Positions 405 through 50,088 of a DNA stretch of 56,903 nucleotides are shown piece by piece. The first letter of the stretch is position 1, and each line of letters opens with the position of its first letter. Source of the stretch: a virus. Below the pieces are notes generated by a model that saw only the letters and a list, made by a program, of their open reading frames with translations, was not told the origin of the DNA and ran no database searches. The DNA is taken from IMG/VR virus record IMGVR_UViG_3300035670_000254, positions 1 through 56,903 of that record. The stretch is one strand, 5' to 3'. A program made the translations under genes and the position numbers.

Positions 405-971
405 GACGCATCAAATATAAATCCTGACTGGACAGCCTACATGGAGTATTCGCGAACTCTGTCGCAAGCCGAAATGGCTATACGCGAGCAGGTGGTTCGT
501 GAGTATCTTTATGACTACAACTGGACTAATGCCTGCCTTCGTTGCGGTTTCCGTCCGGAGTTCGCTGAAGATAACGCCAGGCGTTTTGCACAAGACCCTT
601 ATTGCATTTGGCGTGTTAAAGAACTGGCCCGCGAGAAAGGTCTTAACCCTAATCCAGAACAACGTCAACAGCAAGTTGACACCGACAAAATTGACATCCT
701 TAATGCGCTACGCAAAGAGGCGCATTATTACGGCCCTGGCAGTTCCGCCGCAGCGCGCGTTAGTGCCCTGGGGAAACTGGCGCAGCTACTTGGCATGGAA
801 CCGCCGAAGCAGTCTAAAACGGAAACTAAGGTTCAGGGTGTTATGGTTGTTCCTGGTATAGCTGACACAAACTCTTGGGAAGCTATTGCTGAAGCAGAGC
901 AGGCCAAACTTCAGAGCGAGACAATGGACGCGATCACCCGAGGAATTTCAAATGATGGTGTCGTTCACTAA
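399..971 (+). CDS. terS: Terminase small subunit
   Basis: A 190-residue protein placed directly before the large terminase, where the DNA-recognition subunit of the packaging motor normally lies. The N-terminal third has the helical character of a small-terminase DNA-binding domain: a WTNACLRCGF segment near residues 42-51, then NARRFAQDP. The central part is charged and probably oligomerises, and the C-terminus is acidic. The ATG at 399 lies 4 bases after GGAGG, unusually close, and inside the arm of an inverted repeat (356-404). The gene overlaps the large subunit by 20 bases, suggesting translational coupling. Assignment rests mainly on position and general resemblance. Confidence 0.8.
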   Translation: MSDASNINPDWTAYMEYSRTLSQAEMAIREQVVREYLYDYNWTNACLRCGFRPEFAEDNARRFAQDPYCIWRVKELAREKGLNPNPEQRQQQVDTDKIDILNALRKEAHYYGPGSSAAARVSALGKLAQLLGMEPPKQSKTETKVQGVMVVPGIADTNSWEAIAEAEQAKLQSETMDAITRGISNDGVVH

Positions 972-2505
972 AAACGAAATTAAAGCACCTGAAAGAAAAG
1001 TAGTCTGGCGCCCCCACCCGGGATCGCAAACGTTAGCGCTTTCTTGTCCTGCTGATATTATTGTTTATCACGGAACACGTGGACCAGGTAAAACAGATGC
1101 CCAGCTCATGCGCTTTCGCCAGCGCGTGGGCTTGGGCTATGGCAAATATTGGAAAGGCATCATATTCGACCGTGAATATAAAAACCTTGATGACCTTGTA
1201 ACCAAATCCCAACGCTGGTTTCCTGAGTTCTATGACGGGGCGAAGTTCTTATCTTCAAAATCAGATTACAAGTGGGTATGGCCCACAGGTGAAGAGCTTC
1301 TGTTTCGTGTTGCAGCAAAGCCTGAAGACTATTGGTCATATCACGGTCACGAATATCCGTTCATTGGCTGGAACGAATTAACCAAATACCCGAACTCGCT
1401 GGTGTTTGATGCGATGATGTCTTGTAACCGCTCATCGTTCCTTCCTACTGATCACCCACAAAGAGATGATACCGGTAATGTCTTTTACTTGCCGAATATA
1501 CCTCTTGAAGTATTTGCTACTACCAACCCGTTTGGCGTAGGGCATAATTGGGTCAAAAAACGCTTTATTGATGTTGCTCCGATGGGTCGAATTGTCAAAA
1601 AGGATATCCAGGTATTTGACCCACGTACACAGAAAGATATTGTGGTCACAACTACACAGTGTCATATCTACGGGTCTTATCGTGAAAACAAAAATCTCGA
1701 CCCGAAATATATTGCTAAGTTGATGGAAGAAACTGACCCTAACAAAAGAGCTGCGTGGCTTGGTGGTTCTTGGGATATCACTTCCGGCGGTATGTTCGAT
1801 GACTTGTGGAGTTCGCGGCATCATATTGTTCAACCCTTTAACATTCCACATACCTGGAAGATTACACGTTCATTTGACTGGGGTTCATCCAAACCGTTTT
1901 CAGTGGGCTGGTGGGCTATTAGCGACGGCACTAGCTACGTGGACGCGCAAGGGCGCACCCGTAACACAATACGCGGCGATCTTTTCCGCATAGCGGAGTG
2001 GTACGGCACGAACGGAAAACCTAATGAAGGTTTACGTATGCTTGATAAAGCGATAGCCACAGGTATCGTGTTACGTGAATTAAATTTAGGCATTCGTGAT
2101 CGGGTTGTTCCTGGCCCGGCTGATAACAGTATTTGGGATTTGGAAAACGGAAACTCAATTGCCGCTAAGATGGCTGAGAAGATTGTAATTAATGGCGTGA
2201 CGCATAAAGGGGTATCTTGGAAGCGCTCTGACAAAACTCCAGGTTCTCGTAAACGAGGCTGGCAAAAGATGCGTGAATTTTTTGCCGGAAGCGTACCTGA
2301 TGCTGGCGTTCCTCGTGAAAACCCAGGTATATTTGTTTTTGATACTTGTAAATATTTTATCGACCTTGTACCGAGCTTACCTCGTGATGAAGTAGACCAG
2401 GACGATGTCGATACTGAATCCGAAGACCACCTTGGTGACGAAGTACGTTACTTGGTACTTGATCAAGCCGTCTACAGTGGCGTTAAAGCGACTAAAGGTA
2501 CATAA
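952..2505 (+). CDS. terL: Terminase large subunit (ATPase and nuclease)
   Basis: This 517-residue motor protein cuts and pumps DNA into the prohead. The Walker A loop GTRGPGKT is at residues 41-48, with a hydrophobic strand ending in acidic residues (YPFIGWNE, 135-142) as Walker B. The C-terminal RNase H-like nuclease begins at TRSFDWG, with the likely metal-binding Asp309, and continues at GPADNS with Asp391. The ATG at 952 is preferred over an upstream in-frame start because a GAGG Shine-Dalgarno lies about 8 bases before it; a second ATG follows directly. It overlaps the small subunit and is followed after one base by the portal gene. Confidence 0.93.
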   Translation: MMVSFTKNEIKAPERKVVWRPHPGSQTLALSCPADIIVYHGTRGPGKTDAQLMRFRQRVGLGYGKYWKGIIFDREYKNLDDLVTKSQRWFPEFYDGAKFLSSKSDYKWVWPTGEELLFRVAAKPEDYWSYHGHEYPFIGWNELTKYPNSLVFDAMMSCNRSSFLPTDHPQRDDTGNVFYLPNIPLEVFATTNPFGVGHNWVKKRFIDVAPMGRIVKKDIQVFDPRTQKDIVVTTTQCHIYGSYRENKNLDPKYIAKLMEETDPNKRAAWLGGSWDITSGGMFDDLWSSRHHIVQPFNIPHTWKITRSFDWGSSKPFSVGWWAISDGTSYVDAQGRTRNTIRGDLFRIAEWYGTNGKPNEGLRMLDKAIATGIVLRELNLGIRDRVVPGPADNSIWDLENGNSIAAKMAEKIVINGVTHKGVSWKRSDKTPGSRKRGWQKMREFFAGSVPDAGVPRENPGIFVFDTCKYFIDLVPSLPRDEVDQDDVDTESEDHLGDEVRYLVLDQAVYSGVKATKGT

Positions 2506-2506
2506 A

Positions 2507-4045
2507 ATGTCAATTGAGTCAACGCATCCTCTATTTGATAAGTTTCTTCCTGTGTGGGAGAAACTTGAAGATGTTTACGAAGGTCAGGAAAAAATTAAGG
2601 AAGAAGGCCCGAAGTATTTGCCTCACCTTCCCTCAATGATTTTGGACGGTATTAAGTCAGAAAATGATCTGGGCTATCAGCGCTATAAACAGTATCTGCT
2701 TCGCGCTAACTTCCCGGACGACTATTCTGAAGCTGTTCGAAACAATCACGGTCTGCTGTGGAGTAAACCGCCGACGATTCAATTGCCTGCGGGTATGGAA
2801 TACATGATGGAGAAAGCTACGCGCGACGGTCAGTCTTTGCCCGCGCTGCTTTCCCTCGTGAACGAAATGCAACTTCGCAACGGTCGCGTTGGTCTGCTGC
2901 TGGATATGAGTTCTTCTCCTAGCGTTGATAACAAACCTTTTATCAGCGTCTACTATGCCAAGAATATCCGAAATTGGGATAAGTCAGACGGCGGTGATCA
3001 GGTTGAACGTGATTCGTTGAATTTGGTTGTTCTTGACGAATCGAAAGACGTCCGTAACGGCGATTTTGATTGGACCTTTGAAAAACGTTTCCGCGTACTT
3101 CAGCTGGGCTCTTTAGGTAACGAAGATGCCGAAGGTGAAGATGGTGTTGTTTATAAGCAAGGTCTTTTCGTTGAAGATGCTTATAGCGAAGAGAATATGC
3201 TGACACCTGTTTATCGTGGGAAATCGTTGGAAGAAATACCGTTCATTGCTATTAATGCATCAGACTGTATGATCGACCCTGACGTGCCTCCGCTTCTGGG
3301 CTTAGCTAATCTTTGCTTGTCAATGTACATTAGTGACGCTGACTATCGCCAACACCTGTACTTACAAGGTCAAGATACTTTAGTACGTATTGGGGCCTCA
3401 GGCGCAGGAACCGAAGACGGCGAAGCCCCGGCGCGTGTTGGTGCGGGCGCAGTGATGGACGTTGCTCTGGGCGGTGACGTTAAATACGTTGGTGTTGAAT
3501 CACGAGGCCTGGAAGAAGAACGTTTAGCCTTGCAGAACGACAAAGCTGAAGCGCAGCTTAAAGCTGGTCAGATGGTTAACAACACCAAAGGTAGTCAGGA
3601 GTCAGGGGAAGCCCTCCGGACCCGCATCGGCGCGCGCACTGCAAGCCTTGTACAGATCGCGAAAACCGGGGCCAACGGCTTAGAGATGCTTCTTAAGATC
3701 TGTGCTAAGTGGATGGGCGAAGACCCGGAAAAAGTTCGCATCATCCCGAATCTGGACTTTTCGAAAGCTCTGTTTAGCGGTCAGAACTTGGTTCAGACGA
3801 TGGCCGCGCGTAAACTCGGCGCACCTGTTTCGCTTCAAACTATCCATAAGTATCTGGTAGATCAGTCGTTAACCGATCTTACCTTCGAAGAAGAAATGAC
3901 TCTGATGAAGGAAGAATTTGACAAATATCCGTTCTTAATGGAAATGATGCAAGCCGGGGCCGCTGACCAAAATCCTCAGCAGCAAGCACAGAAGTCTGAT
4001 GTAAGTTCAACGGGCGTTCCGCAAGGAAAACAGTCTGGACAATAA
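2507..4045 (+). CDS. Portal protein (DUF4055-like)
   Basis: This 512-residue protein lies between terminase and scaffold, the usual portal position, and has the size and composition of DUF4055 portal proteins. These form the dodecameric ring at the capsid vertex through which DNA passes. The C-terminal half has a long helical stretch (RLALQNDKAEAQLKAGQMV) typical of the portal stem and wing, and the tail end is Gln-rich. The start is the ATG one base after the terL stop; in-frame codons further upstream lie within terL. Identification is from context and recall of the family. Confidence 0.85.
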   Translation: MSIESTHPLFDKFLPVWEKLEDVYEGQEKIKEEGPKYLPHLPSMILDGIKSENDLGYQRYKQYLLRANFPDDYSEAVRNNHGLLWSKPPTIQLPAGMEYMMEKATRDGQSLPALLSLVNEMQLRNGRVGLLLDMSSSPSVDNKPFISVYYAKNIRNWDKSDGGDQVERDSLNLVVLDESKDVRNGDFDWTFEKRFRVLQLGSLGNEDAEGEDGVVYKQGLFVEDAYSEENMLTPVYRGKSLEEIPFIAINASDCMIDPDVPPLLGLANLCLSMYISDADYRQHLYLQGQDTLVRIGASGAGTEDGEAPARVGAGAVMDVALGGDVKYVGVESRGLEEERLALQNDKAEAQLKAGQMVNNTKGSQESGEALRTRIGARTASLVQIAKTGANGLEMLLKICAKWMGEDPEKVRIIPNLDFSKALFSGQNLVQTMAARKLGAPVSLQTIHKYLVDQSLTDLTFEEEMTLMKEEFDKYPFLMEMMQAGAADQNPQQQAQKSDVSSTGVPQGKQSGQ

Positions 4046-12129: not shown

Positions 12130-12494
12130 GGGACGAAACAATTGAATATGCCTTGCTTCACTGGAAGATGGTTATTCCTCCCATTGGTAGCAAGGCATCT
12201 TTAGTTGATCAATTAAAGCACGTCCGTAAAGTAACTGGTAAAACCCCCGCCCAATTAGCTGAATACGAGAAGAAGAAATTACCTCGTGAAACCAGCTACG
12301 TGTACCTTTATTTCCAAGACTTTTACAACGGCGATCAGTTTAGTTATACTGAGCTTCAATCGTGGCAGCAGTTCATGGGCTTTCAACTCGCTTATTGGGA
12401 AGCTGAACTGATACGTCAATTGTGTCTTGAACGCCTTGCCTTCGACTACAAACGTCAACAAGAATTCGTCCAAAATGAGAAGGGTAAGAAATAA
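11752..12494 (+). CDS. Tail assembly chaperone, frameshifted long form (gpGT-like)
   Basis: A -1 shift at 12113-12123 fuses the short chaperone to the downstream frame, which is open from before the slippery site and has no good independent start (first possible codon is a TTG at 12153 with no ribosome site). The predicted fusion is 247 residues; the added T domain is basic and helical (QLAEYEKKKLPRET). Two classic heptamers overlap here, T TTT TTA and T TTA AAC. The T domain stop overlaps the tape measure start as TAATG. In lambda the G:GT ratio matters for tail length assembly. The added residues should be listed as a join, not as a separate protein. Confidence 0.85.
12113..12123 (+). promoter_or_regulatory. 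Programmed -1 frameshift slippery site
   Basis: TTTTTTTAAAC contains both T TTT TTA (12114-12120) and T TTA AAC (12117-12123), each in the zero-frame register needed for tandem tRNA slippage. Either slip gives the same 247-residue length. Confidence 0.85.
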
Positions 12495-22001: not shown

Positions 22002-22274
22002 TAGCAATCTATGTGGCATGCATGGGGCAAAAAATTAGCGCAAAACAACTCAAAACCACGGAAGGTGTCGATTCGTCTTGCGCTTAGCTACAGGTGGGAC
22101 AGAAGTGAGACACGCAAGGCTTTGCACCGGTTTGCAGAGCTTTGCGTTCTCTGTGCCATATTTGTGACATGCACACAGAAACAAGATTCATCATCTTCCC
22201 TCTTGTGCCACTGACTTGATGGCTGTGAATGCGGTCAATGCCAGTAAAAACAGTTGGTTAAATGAGGTGCTTCA

Positions 22275-22321
22275 CATTCGTAATGCGAAGGTCGTAGGTT
22301 CGACTCCTATTATCGGCACCA
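22275..22321 (+). other. thrW tRNA-Thr(CGU) 3' fragment, attachment-site-like
   Basis: From the anticodon arm (CATTCGTAATGC) through the T arm (GTAGGTTCGACTCC) to the CCA end, the 47 bases agree with the E. coli thrW gene as I remember it. The 5' part of the tRNA is absent: the preceding bases give a poor acceptor strand and no D stem, so this is not a working tRNA. thrW is the integration site of P22 and CP4-6, and tRNA-targeting phages carry exactly such a 3' tRNA copy as attP core. With no integrase present this is most simply a transferred attachment-site scar. Confidence 0.75.
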
Positions 22322-23455: not shown

Positions 23456-25420
23456 CTACTGATAACCCATCATTTCCAAATATTTATTGGCCTTAGCGAT
23501 GTAAACATCATGGTTGAGGTTTTCGGGAAACTCATCAGGTAACTCCATCATAGGAACACCACCAGCTGAGTTGGTTACCTTGTTACCGGAAGCTGCATAG
23601 ACCATTTCAGGATAATCCTCGGGACCATAATACCAGCGTACAACTTTCCCTAAATAGTCACCGTTACACACAGCCCCGCCTTTAACGGCGCGTACAACCG
23701 CAAACTTGCGTATATCTTTACACTTAGTGATTGTTTCTTCTACTGGTATATTATCCTTCAACTTAGCCCGAACAGCTTCAATAATAATTTCCCCGCTTGG
23801 GTTTTTAGACAGACCTGAGTCTGCAAACCAACCCTTGCATTTGAGCTTACCTTTATCATCTATCGCTACGTAGTTGTTAACGTTCGCAGAATAGAGCGCA
23901 CGATAGAAGTTGGATTCCATTTCAAATCCTGTTTGTTTCTCCCACCATTTGATAATTTGTTCGACCAGTGGTTCCTGCTCTTCGGGATAGTCAATAACAA
24001 TACCATCAGTGTTGGCAGATATAACAGGTATTCCCATCAGCTCGAAAGCTTCAATTAACATCAGCAAGGAAAGCTGACCTGTAATTGTTACCTGAATGAG
24101 TAGTTGCGGCGCATACAAGACTGACCACATTGAACCCAGCTTACCGAATGAACCGTTGATAACGATCTTCAGTGTTTGTGCTGTTTTCTTGTCACCAGTA
24201 TGTTTCGCGCGAACACGTCGATCTACAATCTTCTTATAGACGCGAAGGAATACTTCACCCAAATGCTCGGGGAATAAGCGTTGGCCAAGTATCACGCTCG
24301 GGTAATAAGAGGTAACGTCGATATCACGCTTCTTCCGGCCTTTTACATAATGGTGGCAGGCTTTTTCTTCAGTTGAGTGCAAACCACCAATACCCATCTG
24401 ATAACTTGCGTTACCGATATTGATGCGCAAGTTTTTTAGCTGCCAGGGTAGTTCAACAGAACCTTTTTCGCTAATGACGAAGTCGCATTTCTTAATCAAG
24501 TCAATAACGCTATTCATCAGCGGTGTCTGGTAAACTAGGAAGCGAGGCACGTTATATTTATATCTACGCCCTGGCTCCACCTTAGCACGCTGTACGCGCT
24601 TCCTCGTTATGCGCTGTATTTCGTGGCGTATAACATCCTCTGCGATTTGGGCATCCGAACGGGAACGAAGGTCAACACCGTATTCTTGTGACATGATCTC
24701 CCGAAGATGTATTTCATCTTGAAGCGACAAGTAAAGCGCTTCGGTAGCATCCAGGTCGTTGATACAGTAATGAAGAACTATTACCATATGGTTCCGCGTT
24801 AGCATCATGTTAGGCGGGAATGGTAAATCCTGAAGTCTCTTACGATGCAGACGGCCCGCACGTTGTTTCAATGAACCGCCAGCGGGTGCAACTTCCATGA
24901 CGTCAATGTGGTTAAGCTTCAGACGTTCCAGTTCTGCGTTTTTGAGTATGTCGCTTGGCCGCCAGTCTTCGGTAATGATACGATCGCTGGCTTCTTTAAG
25001 CTCTGCGTTAGTTGCACCAGCAAGGGCCAGAGTGAGAATAGGTTCGTCGTATCCTAAACCGTTATAGCTGATTAAGAGTACGTTATGAGCTACCCAACTT
25101 AACCATTCAACATTTAGTTCGCATCCCAGATACTTTTCAAAGTAGATTACTTTTTGAGTCAGGATATTTCGGAAAGCTATCAAGAAATAGTTAGGGTAAC
25201 ACTCGATATCGAAAACATGGGGTTCACCATTTTTAACAGCTTTGACTAGTTCTTCTTGACTATAGCGGTTATAAACAGCGCGCAAAGCTACCTCAAGGCC
25301 TGGCAGATAGTCAGGCCTTTCCCAGGTGCGTTCTGGGGGAGTTCGTTTAATTTTTTCTTTCTTAACTTTTGGAGGAGGCGGCAAGTCTTGCCAGAATAAT
25401 CCAATAGCATCAGTTCTCAT
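23456..25420 (-). CDS. B-family DNA polymerase with 3'-5' exonuclease
   Basis: A 654-residue replicative polymerase, compact for the family. The exonuclease domain shows Exo I FDIEC (Asp71, Glu73), Exo II SYNGLGYDE (Asn120 to Asp125) and Exo III YCIND (Tyr218, Asp222). The polymerase domain shows motif A DIDVTSYYPSV (Asp368), motif B KIVINGSFGKLG (Lys418) and motif C SANTDGIVID (Asp472). Motif C is NTDG rather than the usual DTD; the second catalytic Asp is kept. The clamp-like gene upstream overlaps by 4 bases, so the two probably work as a pair. Confidence 0.9.
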   Translation of the reverse strand: MRTDAIGLFWQDLPPPPKVKKEKIKRTPPERTWERPDYLPGLEVALRAVYNRYSQEELVKAVKNGEPHVFDIECYPNYFLIAFRNILTQKVIYFEKYLGCELNVEWLSWVAHNVLLISYNGLGYDEPILTLALAGATNAELKEASDRIITEDWRPSDILKNAELERLKLNHIDVMEVAPAGGSLKQRAGRLHRKRLQDLPFPPNMMLTRNHMVIVLHYCINDLDATEALYLSLQDEIHLREIMSQEYGVDLRSRSDAQIAEDVIRHEIQRITRKRVQRAKVEPGRRYKYNVPRFLVYQTPLMNSVIDLIKKCDFVISEKGSVELPWQLKNLRINIGNASYQMGIGGLHSTEEKACHHYVKGRKKRDIDVTSYYPSVILGQRLFPEHLGEVFLRVYKKIVDRRVRAKHTGDKKTAQTLKIVINGSFGKLGSMWSVLYAPQLLIQVTITGQLSLLMLIEAFELMGIPVISANTDGIVIDYPEEQEPLVEQIIKWWEKQTGFEMESNFYRALYSANVNNYVAIDDKGKLKCKGWFADSGLSKNPSGEIIIEAVRAKLKDNIPVEETITKCKDIRKFAVVRAVKGGAVCNGDYLGKVVRWYYGPEDYPEMVYAASGNKVTNSAGGVPMMELPDEFPENLNHDVYIAKANKYLEMMGYQ

Positions 25421-26373
25421 GGTCTTTGTCCTACCAGTATGCCACGAAAATTTTTACCAAAGAATGTACACGGATTCGGATACAAAGTTAAGTCTGCGGT
25501 ATCCACATTGTTCTTAAGCAACATCAACATTTCTAAAGCATAGATGCCATGAACAGTTTCAGATTGCATGTTGTATGACGCACCTTCTGTTTCGTCTGCG
25601 TGGGTGCGAACAACTCCATTTTCGATATATACGCGCCCGTTATCCGTTGCAAACGGCTTCAGCTTCTCCAGGGCGTCAAACAACGTCGGGTCGATAGTTT
25701 GCGGATTGCTTTCCTGGCTTAACATCTTTTCAACTTGAACAGGCCATCCGTTTTCCATCAAGGTGCTACGCATCCAACAGCCCGACTCATAATGGAAAGT
25801 GATAGAATTTTCGGTTACCTGCGCTCGAACTGGAGTTTCTTTAATCTTAACCAGCGCTTCGACAGCATCAGAAGACAATACAACATCAAGAGGGAATGGG
25901 CTTCCAAACCAATATTGAGCAAGGCAGACGTTGTTGGTTGCAAATGCTGAACCTCCCTTAATAAGGACAGACATACTAAATCGCCTACTAGCATCAGAGC
26001 CGATAAAAGGACCCACAGTTTTAAGAGCGGTGATAAGTTCTGCTCCGTTAATCTCATACATTTCCCCTTCAGGGTCAACGTGCGCGCCGATTTTATCCGT
26101 ACAGGGTATATTGGCTTTAAACGCACCAGATTTAATATTTAACTTACCGTTTGCCAGCATAGTTAGCTGTGTTGCGCTTTCGCAGTTTGCTATAGCCTTT
26201 AGCATTGGGATAGCTTGCGGGGCGCACTCTAAGCTCAACGGGATAGGCGCAGCCATAGCAATGACACCATTAGTGGCCCGGACCATTCCCTCTTTGATCA
26301 AAAAGTGCGTAGTGCCTTCAACAAAGGCTCGCTTACCTACCGCAGATGATGCGAACTTGAGAGCGTCAAGCAT
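25417..26373 (-). CDS. Sliding clamp-like protein (DnaN-like)
   Basis: A 318-residue protein with the repeated beta-alpha layout of a beta-clamp, for example FPLDVVLSSDAVEALVKIKE and PTLFDALEKLKPFATDNGRVYIENGVVRTH. It is slightly shorter than bacterial DnaN (366). It is translationally coupled to the DNA polymerase (4-base overlap), and a polymerase processivity factor is the natural reading. Similarity is at the level of pattern, so a remote-homology search or structure prediction should confirm it. Confidence 0.65.
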   Translation of the reverse strand: MLDALKFASSAVGKRAFVEGTTHFLIKEGMVRATNGVIAMAAPIPLSLECAPQAIPMLKAIANCESATQLTMLANGKLNIKSGAFKANIPCTDKIGAHVDPEGEMYEINGAELITALKTVGPFIGSDASRRFSMSVLIKGGSAFATNNVCLAQYWFGSPFPLDVVLSSDAVEALVKIKETPVRAQVTENSITFHYESGCWMRSTLMENGWPVQVEKMLSQESNPQTIDPTLFDALEKLKPFATDNGRVYIENGVVRTHADETEGASYNMQSETVHGIYALEMLMLLKNNVDTADLTLYPNPCTFFGKNFRGILVGQRP

Positions 26374-28067: not shown

Positions 28068-28300
28068 GATTGCTCCACTAACTTAAACCAGGTTTCTACA
28101 CGCTCTTCAACAATGCGCTGGGCATTCTCAAACGTTTTGTAGGTATTACCCGTTTTCGGGAGTCCTGGCAACAGCATCGAAATGTTGAACTGAGTCTCGC
28201 CCGAAGCTTGCCAGCTAATTGCAGCTACTTTGATATTATTAATGTACGCCAGGCGAGCGTCACGAAATTTATGTTTACCTTCACGCCAAGTTAGCTTCAT
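28064..28300 (-). CDS. 78-residue protein in the deazaguanine cluster
   Basis: It lies upstream of dpdA and overlaps it by 4 bases. The sequence is basic at the N-terminus (KLTWREGKHKFRDARLAY) with a helical C-terminus. No family recognised. Coupling with dpdA makes a role in the same process possible, for example DNA binding or regulation, but that is only positional. Confidence 0.6.
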   Translation of the reverse strand: MKLTWREGKHKFRDARLAYINNIKVAAISWQASGETQFNISMLLPGLPKTGNTYKTFENAQRIVEERVETWFKLVEQS

Positions 28301-36935: not shown

Positions 36936-37874
36936 TTACTGCTGCCACGGCGGCAGTTGTGCCTGTGCCGGGTGAGGAGGTTCCGCCGCCGGTTGTTCCT
37001 GCTGCGGCGCCTGAAGTTGTTGCGGTGCCGGGGTAGCAGTCTGCTGAGCCCACGGCGGTGGAATAGCTGCGCCAGCGGCAGGTGCCGTTTGTTCAACCGG
37101 GGCTTGCGGCTGTTGCGGCTGTTCTACCGGAGCGGGCTGCTGTACCTGCTGGACCGGAGGCTGGACAGGCTGTTGAACCGGAGCCTGTGGCTGCTGTACA
37201 GGCGCTTGCGGCTGCTGTTGTGCGGAAGTGTCCCACGGCTGAGCGCCGCCCCAGGGTTGTTGAACCGGCTGCTGTACAGGTTGCTGAACCGGCGGCTGTT
37301 GAACCGGAGGAGTCATCGGCTGTACCGGAGCCTGAGGTTGAACAGGCGGTTGCATCGGCGGCTGCTGGACCGGAGCTTGCATCGGAGGTTGCATCGGAGC
37401 GCCAGGGAAAGCGCCACCAGGAACCGCACCAGCACCGGGAACAGTAGGCTGAACAGCCAGCGCACGCTGAACGTTGATAGAGTCATAACCGTTCGGCTGG
37501 TTACGATCTTCATAGTCAGAACCTTCCGGCGCTTTTTCGACTTTCAGTTTGACGTGAAAAGGTTTTTCGTGAAGTTGTTCAGTTGCGTTCCAACGCGGGA
37601 CGCCGACAGCCATAGACAGCGCTGCGAGTTGTTCGTGACCGATGCGCACTGCATCTTCGCTGGTCGGGTGAACGACGTTATAGCTCAGGAAAATTTTGCG
37701 GCCTTTAGCAAAAGCCGGCTCGAGGATTTCACCGACGAAGGCTAACATCTGGCCTTTATTGGCGGTAGTTTTTGCTTCAGATTCAATCAGCTTCGCCTTA
37801 TACCAACCTTTAGGCAGAGCGTCCATGTTCATGGTTGACGCATGTTGACTGGCGTCGAAGTTAAATTGTGCCAT
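36936..37874 (-). CDS. DUF669 single-stranded DNA-binding-like protein
   Basis: A 312-residue protein. Residues 1 to about 125 are the DUF669 domain (LPKGWYKAKLIESEAKTTANKGQMLAFVGEIL) found beside phage recombination ATPases, usually taken as an ssDNA-binding protein. Residues about 145-312 are Pro/Gln low complexity with repeated PVQQP/APVQQPQ units, an unusually long disordered tail. It precedes the Sak4-like gene by one base overlap. The DNA of the tail is repetitive, so length may vary among relatives. Confidence 0.8.
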   Translation of the reverse strand: MAQFNFDASQHASTMNMDALPKGWYKAKLIESEAKTTANKGQMLAFVGEILEPAFAKGRKIFLSYNVVHPTSEDAVRIGHEQLAALSMAVGVPRWNATEQLHEKPFHVKLKVEKAPEGSDYEDRNQPNGYDSINVQRALAVQPTVPGAGAVPGGAFPGAPMQPPMQAPVQQPPMQPPVQPQAPVQPMTPPVQQPPVQQPVQQPVQQPWGGAQPWDTSAQQQPQAPVQQPQAPVQQPVQPPVQQVQQPAPVEQPQQPQAPVEQTAPAAGAAIPPPWAQQTATPAPQQLQAPQQEQPAAEPPHPAQAQLPPWQQ

Positions 37875-42266: not shown

Positions 42267-42269
42267 TTT

Positions 42270-42350
42270 TCAGCCTCCAAAAAATACACTTCGGATAGCA
42301 TCAAAGGCAAGTAAGGCGCCGATGATTATTACGATTGGCATAGGAAACAT
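42270..42350 (-). CDS. 26-residue membrane peptide
   Basis: This mini-gene has a strong AAGGAGGG site and a promoter just upstream. It encodes an almost fully hydrophobic peptide (MFPMPIVIIIGALLAFDAIR then SVFFGG) with a single membrane segment. Its 3' end carries the ribosome site of the next gene. A membrane role in host takeover is a guess; a leader peptide for 42266 is another option. Confidence 0.55.
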   Translation of the reverse strand: MFPMPIVIIIGALLAFDAIRSVFFGG

Positions 42351-42378
42351 TTTCAACCCTCCTTGTATAAACAAGAAA

Positions 42379-42408
42379 AGTATAGTGGTCTCCATAAATT
42401 CAAGTCAA
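42379..42408 (-). promoter_or_regulatory. Promoter TTGACT-18-TATACT
   Basis: Minus-strand TTGACT (42403-42408) and TATACT (42379-42384), spacing 18. The -35 extends as TTGACTTGAA, the same as at 23426-23455, which suggests a shared class of early/middle promoters. Confidence 0.75.
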
Positions 42409-42413
42409 TAAGA

Positions 42414-42431
42414 AACCGCCCGAAGGCGGTT
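42414..42431 (-). terminator. Terminator after the primase-helicase gene
   Basis: A 7-bp stem AACCGCC with GGCGGTT, TTCG loop, overlapping the stop codon of the gene and ending in TCTTATTG. Confidence 0.7.
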
Positions 42432-44865
42432 ATTGATTTACGATACGCTCTAACATTTCCATGTCAGGTACGCGCCAGGCGTGCGCGTCTTTACTGATCT
42501 TAATTGGCGTCACCTTATCATCTTTAGGGTCTGCCAGTGCAGCTTTCTGACCGTCGGTAAGTAACTCGATCAATCCTTCTTGAACGAAGTCCGTAAGAGT
42601 GCGGCGTAAGACATCAGCAGGCCCTGAATTACGTCTTGCCTGTTCCACCCTTGCAAGTTGAGTGCTACAGCGCGCGAGGATAGGGCCTCGTAAAAATATG
42701 CTGAGTTTCTGATGTGGCATGTAACGCATTTCGGTCTTGCTATCTGACAAGTCAGCAGTAAGGTAACGAAGGATAGCGTTCGCAACAGTACGACGAATTT
42801 TTGATTCATTGACTTCACCAATTTCACCAGTCTTGTAGCGGTCCAGCATCATACGAACTGACGACATAATATAGGAATAGGACCATTCAACATGGTGTAG
42901 ACGAACAACAGGATCATCAGGCCTTTCGAATACTGCAAACGTGCCCGCCATACGTTCAGTTTTTTCCTGAATACGGTTATAGATCTGACGAAGCGTTTCA
43001 TCATTGATCTTAGCTTCGTTGCCTAACTTACTTTCCAGAAAATCCTGTATTTCCCCAAGCTTGGCACGAGCCGCTTCATCTTCAGGAATGTTGTGGGCGT
43101 AGCCGTTGCTTTTATAAGAGGCCTGGGTGCTGTAAATATAATGAATCAGTTGAACAAGTTCGTTCGGAAATTCCAGCTGAGTATCAAGATTTCGTTTAGT
43201 TGTGTAGCCTTCGTAAACGCCGTAATTAAAACGTGACATAAAACCATCAGCAGCCAGCTTACCTGTCAGGTTTTTAAACAGCGTGTCAAGAGTAGTTTCA
43301 CCAATAACAGTTAAAGTCACTTCAGTGTTTTTGGCTTCAATATTGTTCTCTTTGTTTGAATACTCCGCACCACCCGTCAATGCGCCTTCATGTGCGGCGG
43401 AATAAGCATTCAGTAAGAAGTTTTTCTTTTCCGCAGCCGCAGGGTTAGCCGCATTGTTTAGATCTTCTAACAGGCCACCGATTTCCGGCATGATCGTACA
43501 AAGGTTGACCTGTTCCAACAGCTTCTTACGCCACGCAATAGTCGAACGCATATCGGCAGCGGTAAAAATATGATCAAGGTCGTCGCCTAGTTCAATCATC
43601 TTCTTAACAATACGCCCGATACCCTGGTGCATGGTGTTTTTACCAGTACCAGAACGAGCCGCAATGATGTAGTAAGCGTTAAGATGTTTGTCGCGGTAAC
43701 GCCAGCCTTTAGCGGTTAGGGCAGACGCAAAGGCCAATGCTGTGGTTATAGCAATTACAGGAACAGGCATCGTGGACGTCTGGAAAATCCACTTCGCTAT
43801 TTCACCAATAGGCCCTGGCGGAAAACCGTATTCGACTTTCTCAACTTCGAACTCAGCATCACGGACCGCTAGCGCTTGCTTCACTTGCACCTTTTGAGCT
43901 TCTGCTTGTTCGCTGTTTTGCATCCATGCCGACACGTTGTTACGCGACATAGCGATAAGCGCTTCCCGCTCTGCTTCCTTACGTTGTTGCTCGACCTGCA
44001 AATAAGAGCGCATATTGTTGATAGTACGCAGCAGATATTTATCATCTGCCATGATCTTATCTTTCTGGCCAGGTTTAGGCCCGCGGTTAGCCAGCGGTGT
44101 TTTACGGAAGATGCGCATAACCTGCGCGTTATTTGGCGACGCTTTAATCAAGAAGTTAATAAGCGCAGCATCAGCTTCTGACCCTGACGGATACTGGTTA
44201 GGGATTAAGCGATCAATAGGTGAGTAGAACAACACCTGAAAGAAGTCGGCGTTTTCCCAAGTGAGAATATCATTAACAACTTCTTCATCCGTACGAACTT
44301 GAGGGCCGTCTTCGACTTTGATAATAACTTTAGCTTTCTCATCAAGCATAGGTGCCAGGTATTCGCAAACACCGTTGCCGTTTGAAAGCGGGCGATTGAT
44401 AACCACATTACCTGTGCAAATAATGAATCGCTCTTGACTATAGCGTTCGATGCCGTAGTCAGAGGAACGACGACCTTCTCCGTGGTTACCGTAAATCCAG
44501 ACGTGCAGACCCTTTCCGCTGGCAGAGCTTTCTACGTAGCTGTTAGAGCCTTGCGCAATGGACCAGAACCAGTTCATGTGTTCAACCGGCGTGTCTGCGT
44601 GTACGTCCATATCAATTACAGTGAACGGGTCGTCGGGAGTTAGAACAAAGCCAGGTAACAGACCCTCGTTAAGTTCGCAAAGATGTTCAGCCGTAGCGAA
44701 TGACATCCAAGTCTTAGGGTCGGTGGGGGAAGCTTTTTCGAGAGGCTTTTGATAGCCCGGGGAGTACATGGGAATCTTGTCGGCGTAACTGACAACCCAC
44801 TGTGGAACAGCTTTTATTTCTTGAGGGAAGCTGTAGCCATCAAATTCAGTTTCAAATTTCTTCAT
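42430..44865 (-). CDS. AEP-type primase with fused helicase
   Basis: An 811-residue replication protein. Residues about 60-165 are a primase-polymerase domain: TVIDMDVH (Asp85, Asp87), SSASGKGLHVWIYG (Ser/His, His121) and RFIICTGNV, the catalytic AEP pattern. Residues about 350-700 are a DUF3987-like helicase with Walker A AARSGTGKNT (402-411) and LCTIMPEIGGLLED as Walker B. One protein thus makes primers and unwinds DNA, replacing DnaG/DnaB. It lies close to the iteron-rich region (48327-48573), which supports its use at the origin. Confidence 0.88.
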   Translation of the reverse strand: MKKFETEFDGYSFPQEIKAVPQWVVSYADKIPMYSPGYQKPLEKASPTDPKTWMSFATAEHLCELNEGLLPGFVLTPDDPFTVIDMDVHADTPVEHMNWFWSIAQGSNSYVESSASGKGLHVWIYGNHGEGRRSSDYGIERYSQERFIICTGNVVINRPLSNGNGVCEYLAPMLDEKAKVIIKVEDGPQVRTDEEVVNDILTWENADFFQVLFYSPIDRLIPNQYPSGSEADAALINFLIKASPNNAQVMRIFRKTPLANRGPKPGQKDKIMADDKYLLRTINNMRSYLQVEQQRKEAEREALIAMSRNNVSAWMQNSEQAEAQKVQVKQALAVRDAEFEVEKVEYGFPPGPIGEIAKWIFQTSTMPVPVIAITTALAFASALTAKGWRYRDKHLNAYYIIAARSGTGKNTMHQGIGRIVKKMIELGDDLDHIFTAADMRSTIAWRKKLLEQVNLCTIMPEIGGLLEDLNNAANPAAAEKKNFLLNAYSAAHEGALTGGAEYSNKENNIEAKNTEVTLTVIGETTLDTLFKNLTGKLAADGFMSRFNYGVYEGYTTKRNLDTQLEFPNELVQLIHYIYSTQASYKSNGYAHNIPEDEAARAKLGEIQDFLESKLGNEAKINDETLRQIYNRIQEKTERMAGTFAVFERPDDPVVRLHHVEWSYSYIMSSVRMMLDRYKTGEIGEVNESKIRRTVANAILRYLTADLSDSKTEMRYMPHQKLSIFLRGPILARCSTQLARVEQARRNSGPADVLRRTLTDFVQEGLIELLTDGQKAALADPKDDKVTPIKISKDAHAWRVPDMEMLERIVNQ

Positions 44866-47484: not shown

Positions 47485-47705
47485 TAGAATTTCCAGAGCC
47501 AGCGGATTAATAAGCCTAAGGCGAGAGAGCCGCTAAACAGCAGCGCGCCAAACACCATCTCTTGAAGTATAGCCAACATCGTTGATGTCTTGATCATAAG
47601 AATTAAACTCCAGCCGTATTCCAAAATCACACCTACACCGAAAGACAATGTACCTATTATAACACAGACTAACACCCGACCGGCCCTAGATATAAGAGGT
47701 TTCAT
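47484..47705 (-). CDS. 73-residue two-helix membrane protein
   Basis: Two hydrophobic segments (residues about 9-30 and 43-70) with a basic N-terminus and a short polar turn. It is coupled to genes on both sides. A membrane role is clear; the function is unknown. Confidence 0.65.
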   Translation of the reverse strand: MKPLISRAGRVLVCVIIGTLSFGVGVILEYGWSLILMIKTSTMLAILQEMVFGALLFSGSLALGLLIRWLWKF

Positions 47706-48262
47706 TTTGATTTGCCAGAAGCAGATTTCTTGTCGCTATACTTCAGCTTGCGAAAGGTATCTTCAATGTGACTCATGGCCCGACTGAGCTCAACAGGTTG
47801 GTAGGGCAGAAGCTCTACAATACAACCTTTGGCTTTCCCGCCTTTGTAATATTGTGGATACTGAGAAGCGATATAATCCTTCCATTTATCCCACACAACT
47901 TCTAACGGCTCGTTTGACGTGTACTCGGTGCCGAACAGGGTATAGGTGAACTCGCCCTTAGATTTCTTAGGACGACCGGCTTTCTTCTCGTTCTTAGCCA
48001 GCTTGGTAGAAATGCGGGCTTGCTGCGACGCGACGTACTGCCCGAACCACCATAACGCAAAATCCCGCGGGTAGAGTACACGCTGTGCGGATTTAACCAC
48101 AATAAGCTTACCTGCACGTATAAGCTGTGTTTGACGTGACATTGATACTTTGAACTTTTCTTCTACTTCTTTAGCAGTCATGTAATGCTGAACAAATTCA
48201 GCTTCTGCTTGGTCGGTATAGAGCTTTACTTGCTCCGGTGTGAGATCAAATGAAGTGGTCAT
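47702..48262 (-). CDS. Helix-turn-helix DNA-binding protein near the origin
   Basis: A 186-residue protein with a MerR/excisionase-type HTH at about residues 27-60 (YMTAKEVEEKFKVSMSRQTQLIRAGKLIVV), followed by a basic domain (KLAKNEKKAGRPKKSKGEF, an AT-hook-like GRPKK at residues 95-100). It is the first gene of the minus-strand block and faces the GTWACTTTR repeats at 48327-48573. It could bind them as initiator helper or as a repressor of its own operon. A TATAAT at 48287-48292 lies just upstream. Confidence 0.7.
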   Translation of the reverse strand: MTTSFDLTPEQVKLYTDQAEAEFVQHYMTAKEVEEKFKVSMSRQTQLIRAGKLIVVKSAQRVLYPRDFALWWFGQYVASQQARISTKLAKNEKKAGRPKKSKGEFTYTLFGTEYTSNEPLEVVWDKWKDYIASQYPQYYKGGKAKGCIVELLPYQPVELSRAMSHIEDTFRKLKYSDKKSASGKSK

Positions 48263-49051
48263 AGCAGCTCCTCATGCTTTATGCACATTATACAGGCAAC
48301 AACTATGATCTGCTACGGATATTTAATTACTTTACTTCTGCATCGACTTATTCCGTGAATAGCTATAGTTACTTTAACAGGATGCGATAGTAACTTTACT
48401 TTATGTGCTTAAATTGCGAGTAACTTTGCTTTAGTAACTTTCCCTATAGCTACTTAAGGACTAACTGCTTACTAAAGTTACTTTAGCATTGGTTGCTGTA
48501 AACTACGCGCTAGCCCTTGCAGCTACTAGCTTTAGCGTAATTGTACGAGTTACTTTAGGACAACGTTACTTTGCACGCTTTACGCTTTCCTATATATACC
48601 TTGGGAAAATACACCTATAGAAACTAGTTATTAAAGTGCAATTAATTGTTTTAGATTAACTGTAAAGTATAAAAAGTATAAGTAATATATATTAGATATA
48701 CTGTATTTACTGGGTTTCTCCTACTTTCTTGAGTATAAAGTATCGTTAAACAGACGAATCTTCTATCTTACATCGAATTAAGTGGTTACAGATACACCTG
48801 ACCGGCATATATTTGATCAATATAAATTTCAAAATTTCCAATTCAGATTTTCAAATTTCCTTTTTCGATTTCTTATTTTTCATTCCTAGATTTCAAGTCA
48901 CTTTACTGTTAGAATGTTCTTAGAGTCATTGAGAGCCGAAGTATGCAAGTCCGTTAGGACCGTTAGTAGGTGCGGTGACGTATTGTGGACACAAGAAACG
49001 CCTCGTGAATGCCGTGGCGTGAAAAGAGATCAAGCTGGGAGGAGTGGAAAT
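48263..49051. other. AT-rich intergenic region, candidate replication origin
   Basis: This 789-base stretch between divergent blocks has no supported gene. Its left part (48327-48573) has eight GTWACTTTR-like repeats in one orientation and a near-copy GTCACTTTA at 48897-48905; the middle (48640-48720) is almost pure A+T; at 48820-48870 there are TTTCAAAATTTCC/TTTCAAATTTCC direct repeats. From 48930 the base composition changes, with CCGTTAG twice (48950-48970). Iterons plus an AT-rich unwinding element are the usual parts of an origin. Confidence 0.6.
48327..48573 (+). repeat. Iteron-like repeats, consensus GTWACTTTR
   Basis: Copies start at 48327 (one base off consensus), 48368, 48390, 48420, 48434, 48477, 48549 and 48565, all on the same strand. 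Spacing is irregular (14 to 72 bases). They could bind the HTH protein encoded next door or an initiator. Confidence 0.7.
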
Positions 49052-49360
49052 ATGAAGATCGAAGGTCAGACCGAGAATTATATCTGTGCGGATGGTAAGT
49101 TCTTCACGCTCTATGATTATGATGAGAAGGGCGCTGCGCTCTACCGTCAGATCGAGTGTTACCTTCCCGCCGCAGAGGGCACGTATGGCGAGCCGCTGGC
49201 TGTTACTATGCAGCGCAAGCTCAACGCATTTGAGCAAGGAAAGGACTGGCGCTGGGCCATTGGTTCAACAGGGTCGCTCCTTACGGCGCGCTACCAGGTG
49301 CGGGAAAGCGACGGCGAGCTGGTTTCGCTGCTGACGTTGAGCGGAGGCATGAAGAAGTGA
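49052..49360 (+). CDS. 102-residue protein, unrecognised
   Basis: First gene of the rightward small-gene region. The ATG at 49052 follows GGGAGGAG; a much longer upstream start is unlikely because that part has no ribosome site and odd composition. The product (CADGKFFTLYDYDEKGAALYRQIECYLPA) is beta-rich in look with no known motif. GC content and codon choice are higher than the neighbouring AT-rich DNA. Confidence 0.6.
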   Translation: MKIEGQTENYICADGKFFTLYDYDEKGAALYRQIECYLPAAEGTYGEPLAVTMQRKLNAFEQGKDWRWAIGSTGSLLTARYQVRESDGELVSLLTLSGGMKK

Positions 49361-49838
49361 GCGCCAAGGGCCCAGGGACGGGCCTGGATTTATTCCTGTC
49401 AATTTCAAATTTTGTAGATGAGTCGCGTTTAGCGAATTTTCAGCTACCTCCAGAAAGCCCATCCTTCCGTTACTAATACTTCGTTGCCTAATGATAGGAA
49501 GCTCATCATTCGTTGGCTCAGGATATTATGAGTTGACTACTGGTATGTCAGACGCCTGCTAATTATTTCTTTTTAAAGAGCGTGCGAATAGTTAGCCAGT
49601 CTGTCGGCGCTGTGCTATCCGTACAGCTATTATAATTTGAACTCGTAATAATTCATAACGGAAACTATCTGATAGCATTTCTTGCCACACCAACTTCAAA
49701 GTTGTGTGTTACACGCGCACGCATTCCTTATAGATGCACATCACTTCAGAAACAGCACGATTGGCCACACCAAGTATCATAGCTGATGTATAATTACTTC
49801 AACGCCGCAATACTGCGGGACTGAATAGGAGTAATATC
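49361..49838. other. Intergenic region with GCCACACCAA elements
   Basis: This 478-base stretch has no gene that I can support. It carries two of three GCCACACCAA elements (49684-49693 and 49764-49773) and a hairpin (CCAGG/CCTGG, near 49371-49386) after the previous gene. The second element is followed 15 bases later by TATAAT (49789-49794). Confidence 0.6.
49764..49794 (+). promoter_or_regulatory. Promoter with GCCACACCAA element, gene 49839
   Basis: GCCACACCAA (49764-49773), gap 15, TATAAT (49789-49794), start codon 45 bases on. With the -10 fixed, CACACC takes the -35 place, so the element may replace a normal -35 or be an activator site. Confidence 0.55.
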
Positions 49839-50048: not shown

Positions 50049-50056
50049 CACAAACG

Positions 50057-50088
50057 GCCACACCAAGCTTCAAACGTTGTTAGATACT
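50057..50088 (+). promoter_or_regulatory. Third GCCACACCAA element with GATACT
   Basis: GCCACACCAA (50057-50066), gap 16, GATACT (50083-50088), upstream of the Lys/Ala-rich gene. An 8-bp hairpin (GGGCAAGC with GCTTGTCC, near 50098-50119) follows in the leader. Confidence 0.5.

Follow-up and report, generated by a model that had tools for sequence, protein, structure and literature searches.

We propose that the 789-bp noncoding region between positions 48263 and 49051 of the window (the whole 56,903-bp stretch analyzed, IMG/VR record IMGVR_UViG_3300035670_000254) is probably a theta-type (bidirectional) replication origin, with the adjacent winged-helix (wHTH) protein P0001 as its likely repeat-binding initiator and autoregulator. 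An origin layout had been suggested for this region in the initial annotation, and this interpretation gained support from the conserved repeats, a minimum of duplex stability, the primase-linked kin of the wHTH protein, and a GC-skew minimum at the corresponding gap of phage 9g. The record represents a Queuovirinae-type siphophage, carrying 7-deazaguanine pathway genes (QueE, QueD, and queuine tRNA-ribosyltransferase) together with a polymerase, a clamp, an SF2 helicase, a Cas4-type exonuclease, and a primase. The records closest to it are those of Enterobacter phage EC151 and Klebsiella phage K4PH164, whose primases are 75% and 82% identical to that of the window, respectively. At the DNA level, the candidate origin region had no match among phage records in a megablast search, and an Rfam scan of the window returned no match. 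The features of the region are listed in table 1.

Table 1. Features of the candidate origin region and associated genes (positions in the window)
Feature	Position	Strand	Remarks
Primase with DUF3987-type ATPase (primase-helicase)	42430-44865	-	
P0001, 186-aa wHTH protein, candidate initiator/autoregulator	47702-48262	-	Recognition helix at residues 41-49
AT-hook-like segment KKAGRPKKSKG of P0001 (residues 93-103)	47954-47986	-	KK, GRPKK, and KG invariant in three relatives
Whole noncoding region, candidate origin (ori)	48263-49051		Between conserved divergent genes
GAGGAGC ribosome-binding site of the wHTH gene	48267-48273	-	Follows TATAAT; invariant in three phages
-10-like TATAAT of the leftward (wHTH) promoter	48287-48292	-	Conserved; invariant context in three phages
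Iteron array, consensus CTAAAGTAACTATAG on -, AGTTACTTTAG on +	48321-48573		About nine sites, mostly in one orientation, irregularly spaced
Candidate DNA unwinding element, core 48650-48699	48609-48708		Least stable DNA of the record in a nearest-neighbor scan; same placement in relatives
Footprint block GAGTTTCTATAGG between iterons and unwinding element	48614-48629	-	Conserved in three-way alignment
Footprint block GAAACCCAGTAAATACAGTATAT on far side of unwinding element	48696-48718	-	Conserved in three-way alignment
Possible rightward promoter GTTACA-17-TATATT	48785-48813	+	Overlaps conserved block ACCTGACCGGCATAT (48796-48810); weak consensus match
First rightward gene, 102 aa	49052-49360	+	Conserved across clade

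The boundaries of the region were examined by comparison with the two nearest relatives. The noncoding region had been placed at 48263-48913; its left edge was retained, but the right boundary proved to be an over-called start, and since the conserved start of the rightward gene, with 102 aa as in EC151 and K4PH164, lies at 49052, the gap extends to 49051. The lengths of the gaps are closely similar (789, 775, and 788 bp in the window, EC151, and K4PH164, respectively), and the position between divergent gene blocks, with the wHTH gene leading the leftward block and the 102-aa gene the rightward block, was confirmed. A three-way alignment of these gaps revealed invariant blocks, namely the repeat CTAAAGTAACT, GAAACCCAGTAAAT, GAGTTTCTATAGG, and GTCAGGT, and the sequence TATAATGTGC followed by GAGGAGC upstream of the wHTH gene was likewise invariant in the three phages. 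Matches of the kind that define the possible rightward promoter were not above chance in number. The conserved GGTCAGGT block at 48796-48810 may serve as the rightward promoter or as another operator; both EC151 and K4PH164 have two GGTCAGGTATATGC-type copies of it. In the rightward early region, we also observed, within about 380 bp, three near-identical GGCCACACCAA copies on the plus strand (49683-49693, 49763-49773, and 50056-50066), the first of which is followed by the inverted stretch CACACCAACTTCAAAGTTGTGTG; with up to two mismatches allowed, this 11-mer was not enriched across the whole window.

The repeat array reported beforehand, as eight GTWACTTTR copies in 250 bases, is present, but the count required revision: seven strict sites, six on the plus strand and one on the minus strand, lie within 206 bp (48368-48573), and the eighth lies at 12227. 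These 8 matches in the whole window compare with 2.0 expected by chance, and degenerate copies (ATTACTTTA at 48328, GTAACTTTC near 48435, and a diverged copy at 48444-48459) bring the array to approximately nine sites. The noncoding 9-mer repeat density reached the window maximum in the gap, where the best 9-mer count exceeded that of all 100 of 100 dinucleotide shuffles; an equal density peak at 37,101 is located inside coding sequence. In this coding stretch, the minus-strand gene at 36936-37874, which matches single-strand DNA-binding protein families, contains a GC-rich tandem repeat (GCTGCTG-type, 37001-37350), and in many relatives coding repeat-rich peaks occur in or near the region corresponding to this gene. 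As an out-of-sample test of the iterons, we searched the window with a weight matrix derived solely from the repeats of EC151 and K4PH164. Its four best matches all fell in the gap, between 48321 and 48487, and, at a threshold of at least 12 bits, 7 of the 9 sites were located in the 789-bp gap, with 2 in the other 56 kb of the 56.9 kb. The repeats are thus conserved in EC151 and K4PH164, a point on which the initial annotation had staked its proposal, and several direct repeats above chance occur in noncoding DNA, as in iteron-type origins. An IMG/VR scan for CTAAAGTAACTATAG was uninformative, with single sites per contig among the matches listed. The irregular spacing and the one inverted iteron count against the origin interpretation. 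As for DnaA boxes, the signature of a DnaA-dependent origin, only isolated one-mismatch sites were found, and these were not conserved between relatives.

Adjacent to the iterons, the AT-rich stretch noticed earlier is where the duplex stability of the record is lowest at lengths of 50, 100, 200, and 300 bp (z between about -4.3 and -4.6), with nearest-neighbor minima at 48650-48699 for 50 bp (z about -4.4) and at 48609-48708 for 100 bp (z about -4.6). AT-rich DNA next to the repeats, as expected of an iteron-type origin, is present in this region and is a candidate unwinding element. In EC151, K4PH164, yong3, STP-SP5, CAjan, Seurat, CSP1C, 9g, and Vid5, the stability minimum of the partial stretch examined likewise fell in the syntenic gap or in its counterpart ahead of the primase operon. 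The JenP1 minimum lay in this counterpart at 50 bp but outside it at 100 bp, and that of HTN2 was found some 10 kb away from the wHTH gene, at the end of the record. Among the primase loci retrieved from IMG/VR, the 100-bp minimum preceded the primase by 0.7-3 kb in 16 and by 5.5 kb in L032, a Vid5 copy, and the locus minimum was elsewhere in L021, L028, and L031; in L021 and L028, the segment with the second-lowest stability occupied the expected place upstream of the primase.

A gap with the same anatomy recurred across Queuovirinae and in more distant phages, and the lineage-specific repeats, where clear, occupied the same place despite their different sequences. In particular, we observed TATAGGGT in CAjan, Seurat, and L019, CCCCTATAA in yong3 (with borderline significance), AAAACTTTG in STP-SP5, GTAATCCC in Vid5, GGTTACGA in L035 and L037, CATCACCCC in L039, CCATTAC in L030, and CCTACCCC in L041. 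The likely true repeats of L037 and L039 were found by eye and counting, both having been missed by automatic 9-mer picking. Where the repeats were clear, the usual order was unwinding element, iterons, and gene, with some copies on the far side. In the shuffle test, the repeats of 9g, L020, and L028 were not significant, and no clear repeat was observed in the Nipunavirus-type loci (PaMx25, L021, L022, and L025); the weakness of the repeats in several lineages is an exception to the origin layout.

The gene flanking the array had been described as a minus-strand HTH protein with an AT-hook-like basic segment, and both the HTH and the GRPKK segment are present in P0001. A structure model of P0001 computed with an alignment contained a winged helix at residues 9-94, with a pLDDT of 85-97 over most of it and low confidence for the C-terminal part beyond residue ~95; a single-sequence model (pLDDT 50) was discarded. 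In Pfam, P0001 gave only subthreshold matches to Rv2175c_wHTH and HTH_17, with no significant match and hence none to the Rep_3/RepA plasmid initiators, and a profile search of its sequence against solved structures gave no confident match. In Foldseek searches of viral models, the top matches included PaMx25 and PSTCR4 members and AlpA- and excisionase-type proteins. The matches among PDB structures were BldC and MerR-type DNA-binding domains, none of which reached E <= 0.001 in Foldseek, and the VIA-align Z scores of 5-7.5 against MerR-type domains may reflect only a common arrangement. BldC binds direct repeats head to tail and thus provides a precedent for repeat binding by this fold. No P0001 relatives were found in IMG/VR, searched with the protein alone or with a 3-row alignment, or in 84,980 bacterial and archaeal genomes.

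The relationship of P0001 to the replication genes was addressed by analyzing the primase neighborhood. In most relatives, the gene directly upstream of the primase encodes a small wHTH protein (~65-100 aa; 67 aa in CAjan), and P0001 is homologous to this family: its N-terminal profile matched that of the primase-adjacent proteins (hhalign A1 versus A5: 89%, E 2e-6), and the domain motif F-x3-Y-x4-E...R is shared. A further hhalign comparison (A6 versus A1) was discarded as circular, because both contain P0001. In the EC151 clade, the wHTH gene is the first after the array, about 3 kb upstream of the primase and not immediately before it, and its product carries an extra AT-hook and C-terminal part compared with the small primase-adjacent proteins; in Nonagvirus phages (JenP1), no such wHTH gene was found next to the primase. 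Both departures weigh against the origin interpretation. For the CAjan homologue of the primase, the DUF3987 and NrS-1 HBD matches exceeded the Pfam cut-offs, while the AEP match stayed below its own; the enzyme appears to be an AEP-type primase carrying a DUF3987 ATPase. Fusions of a primase with such an ATPase have been predicted to serve mobile elements as replicative primase-helicases (PMC5862659). We also noted that the start of the 9g primase (L013 4879-5160) was annotated as a separate gene, 9g_00026; JenP1 has a single 849-aa primase, which suggests that a frameshift was introduced into the 9g record during sequencing or annotation.

Recognition helices and repeats corresponded in two lineages. 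The stretch SMSRQTQLI was invariant in the EC151 clade, in which the proteins are just 49-60% identical to P0001, and this parallels the iteron common to the clade. Likewise, the wHTH helices of L035 and L037 are nearly identical, and the prediction that L037 would carry the L035 repeat held when that repeat was then found in it. This helix-repeat correspondence bears only indirectly on the putative binding of P0001 to the repeats.

The main rival explanation is that the region is an operator or promoter region only, in which P0001 represses or activates two divergent early operons through the repeats, the AT-rich DNA is a promoter or UP element, and replication starts elsewhere. Such a role would fit the divergent promoters with a conserved TATAAT at the gap edge and the resemblance of P0001 to MerR/BldC/excisionase-type regulators. 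It also has a parallel in plasmid pRN1, in which transcription is repressed by the small protein whose gene precedes that of the primase-helicase, with the putative origin on the downstream side of the operon (PMC4234260); however, the stretch following the window primase (42267-42429) contained no large pRN1-like stem-loop (fold z -0.86). Moreover, an operator requires neither a genome-wide melting minimum nor a skew switch. With respect to the latter, skew or depth maxima located elsewhere were to have counted against the origin, and the local GC-skew minimum falls within the region, at 48906. The cumulative skew of the linear record has its absolute minimum at the first bases and its maximum at 22.6 kb (22612). 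The convergent junction of the two gene blocks, which contains a tRNA-Thr gene (22240-22321), adjoins this maximum. Skew minima in or at the edge of the gap were also observed in K4PH164 (5958), EC151 (6026), STP-SP5 (7122), yong3 (3928), and 9g (24875), and in CAjan the minimum of the examined stretch was at 3822, from which a plateau extended as far as the gap, with no sharp switch.

Because the gap of the window coincides with the switch in gene strand, its own skew does not separate replication from transcription. In 9g, the gap (24,867-25,903) and the strand switch (27.8-28.4 kb) are about 3 kb apart, and the skew minimum of the stretch examined (24,875) is at the gap and not at the strand switch. 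The divergent promoters predicted by the 9g authors are at ~27.9-28.1 kb, 2-3 kb from the gap (PMC4276943), so that both the skew minimum and the least stable DNA lie away from them, which argues against a purely regulatory region. We further compared the coding-strand skew of the co-directional genes on the far side of the gap (0.009 in CAjan, -0.004 in STP-SP5, 0.040 in 9g, -0.006 in CSP1C, and -0.013 in Seurat) with that of equal-length windows downstream of the gap, which averaged 0.08-0.11. In CAjan, STP-SP5, and 9g, the far-side value ranked among the lowest 4-8% of the downstream windows, and in the two shorter comparisons, CSP1C and Seurat, every downstream window exceeded it (0%). This test in relatives is modest, and supporting rather than decisive, because the lineages share ancestry and the stretches are short. 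On balance, we consider a solely regulatory function unlikely.

Two other functions were weighed and found far less probable. A packaging initiation site (pac/cos), recognized by a wHTH protein resembling the terminase small subunit, was considered because similar wHTH folds can be found in small-terminase and redirecting-packaging proteins (6hn7 was among the structure matches) and the annotation of one relative reads redirecting packaging protein; we regard it as very improbable, given that the physical end of the packaged 9g DNA at 28,243 (PMC4276943) is at least 2.3 kb from the gap, that the large terminase gene of the window (886-2505) is far from the wHTH gene, and that the wHTH is linked to the primase in relatives. 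Least credible was a centromere-like site for partition or maintenance, acting in the pseudolysogenic carrier state described for 9g. Such a site would suit the metastable carrier cultures formed by this phage (PMC4276943) and the modest structural similarity of the wHTH to the RacA and pSK1 Par DNA-binding domains, but it leaves the skew switch, the melting element, and the primase linkage unexplained, and no ParA-like NTPase was identified in the subset of genes scanned.

For the preferred reading as a replication origin, we envisage the following sequence of events. P0001, expressed from the leftward promoter that borders the region, would bind the direct repeats at 48321-48573 head to tail. 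The filled array, perhaps together with AT-hook contacts to the AT-rich DNA, could strain and melt the unwinding element at 48609-48708, on which the phage primase-helicase would then be loaded, and forks would depart both ways from the melted element. Because the leftward promoter sits at the array edge, binding of P0001 would also be expected to damp transcription of the wHTH-primase operon and thereby limit firing. More broadly, and with rather less confidence, at somewhat below an even chance, we suggest that Queuovirinae and related siphophages may share an initiation module of a separate MerR/excisionase-like wHTH initiator and an AEP-type primase-helicase, in which the origin position and the melting element were kept, the iteron and the recognition helix changed together by lineage, and the EC151 clade carries the AT-hook version.

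We found no replication origin annotation for these phages, and searches of the openly accessible literature returned no paper that named an origin or an initiator for them. An iteron-type origin with a separate excisionase/MerR-like wHTH protein as candidate initiator, in an AT-hook form in the EC151 clade, thus appears to be undescribed. Among these phages are E. coli models that are easy to grow (CAjan, 9g, and the BASEL set), and the prediction provides exact origin coordinates (in CAjan, for example, 7.4-8.1 kb of locus L007) and a candidate initiator-iteron pair for each lineage, so that the coevolution of initiators and origins, and possibly compatibility between coinfecting phages, become testable.

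The proposed origin combines characteristics of several known systems. As in the iteron plasmid origins of the pSC101, P1, F, and RK2 type, direct repeats lie beside an AT-rich unwinding element, and the adjoining gene encodes a winged-helix DNA-binding protein that is probably self-regulating; in contrast to these plasmids, P0001 is a MerR/excisionase-like wHTH protein and not, by the searches made, a Rep_3/RepA initiator, there is no conserved DnaA box, and the primase-helicase, polymerase, and clamp are encoded by the phage itself. In the RepC-RepA-RepB' system of RSF1010, the iteron-binding protein is likewise separate from the helicase and primase functions (PMC4234260), which in the window phage are apparently fused. 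The SCCmec and SaPI origins (Cch2, Rep) similarly have short repeats near the replication operon of a mobile element, but in those elements the iterons are bound by the helicase, whose gene lies upstream of the origin (PMC7581432). In phage P4, a wHTH recognizing the origin repeats acts together with a primase-helicase, as proposed here; however, the wHTH of the P4 alpha protein is part of the same polypeptide and its primase is of the Toprim type, whereas the wHTH of the window phage is separate and its primase appears AEP-like. The lambda origin and its O protein likewise combine iterons with an AT-rich region in a phage; the lambda iterons, however, are inside gene O and recruit the host DnaB through P, whereas those of the window are noncoding and the phage encodes its own primase-helicase.
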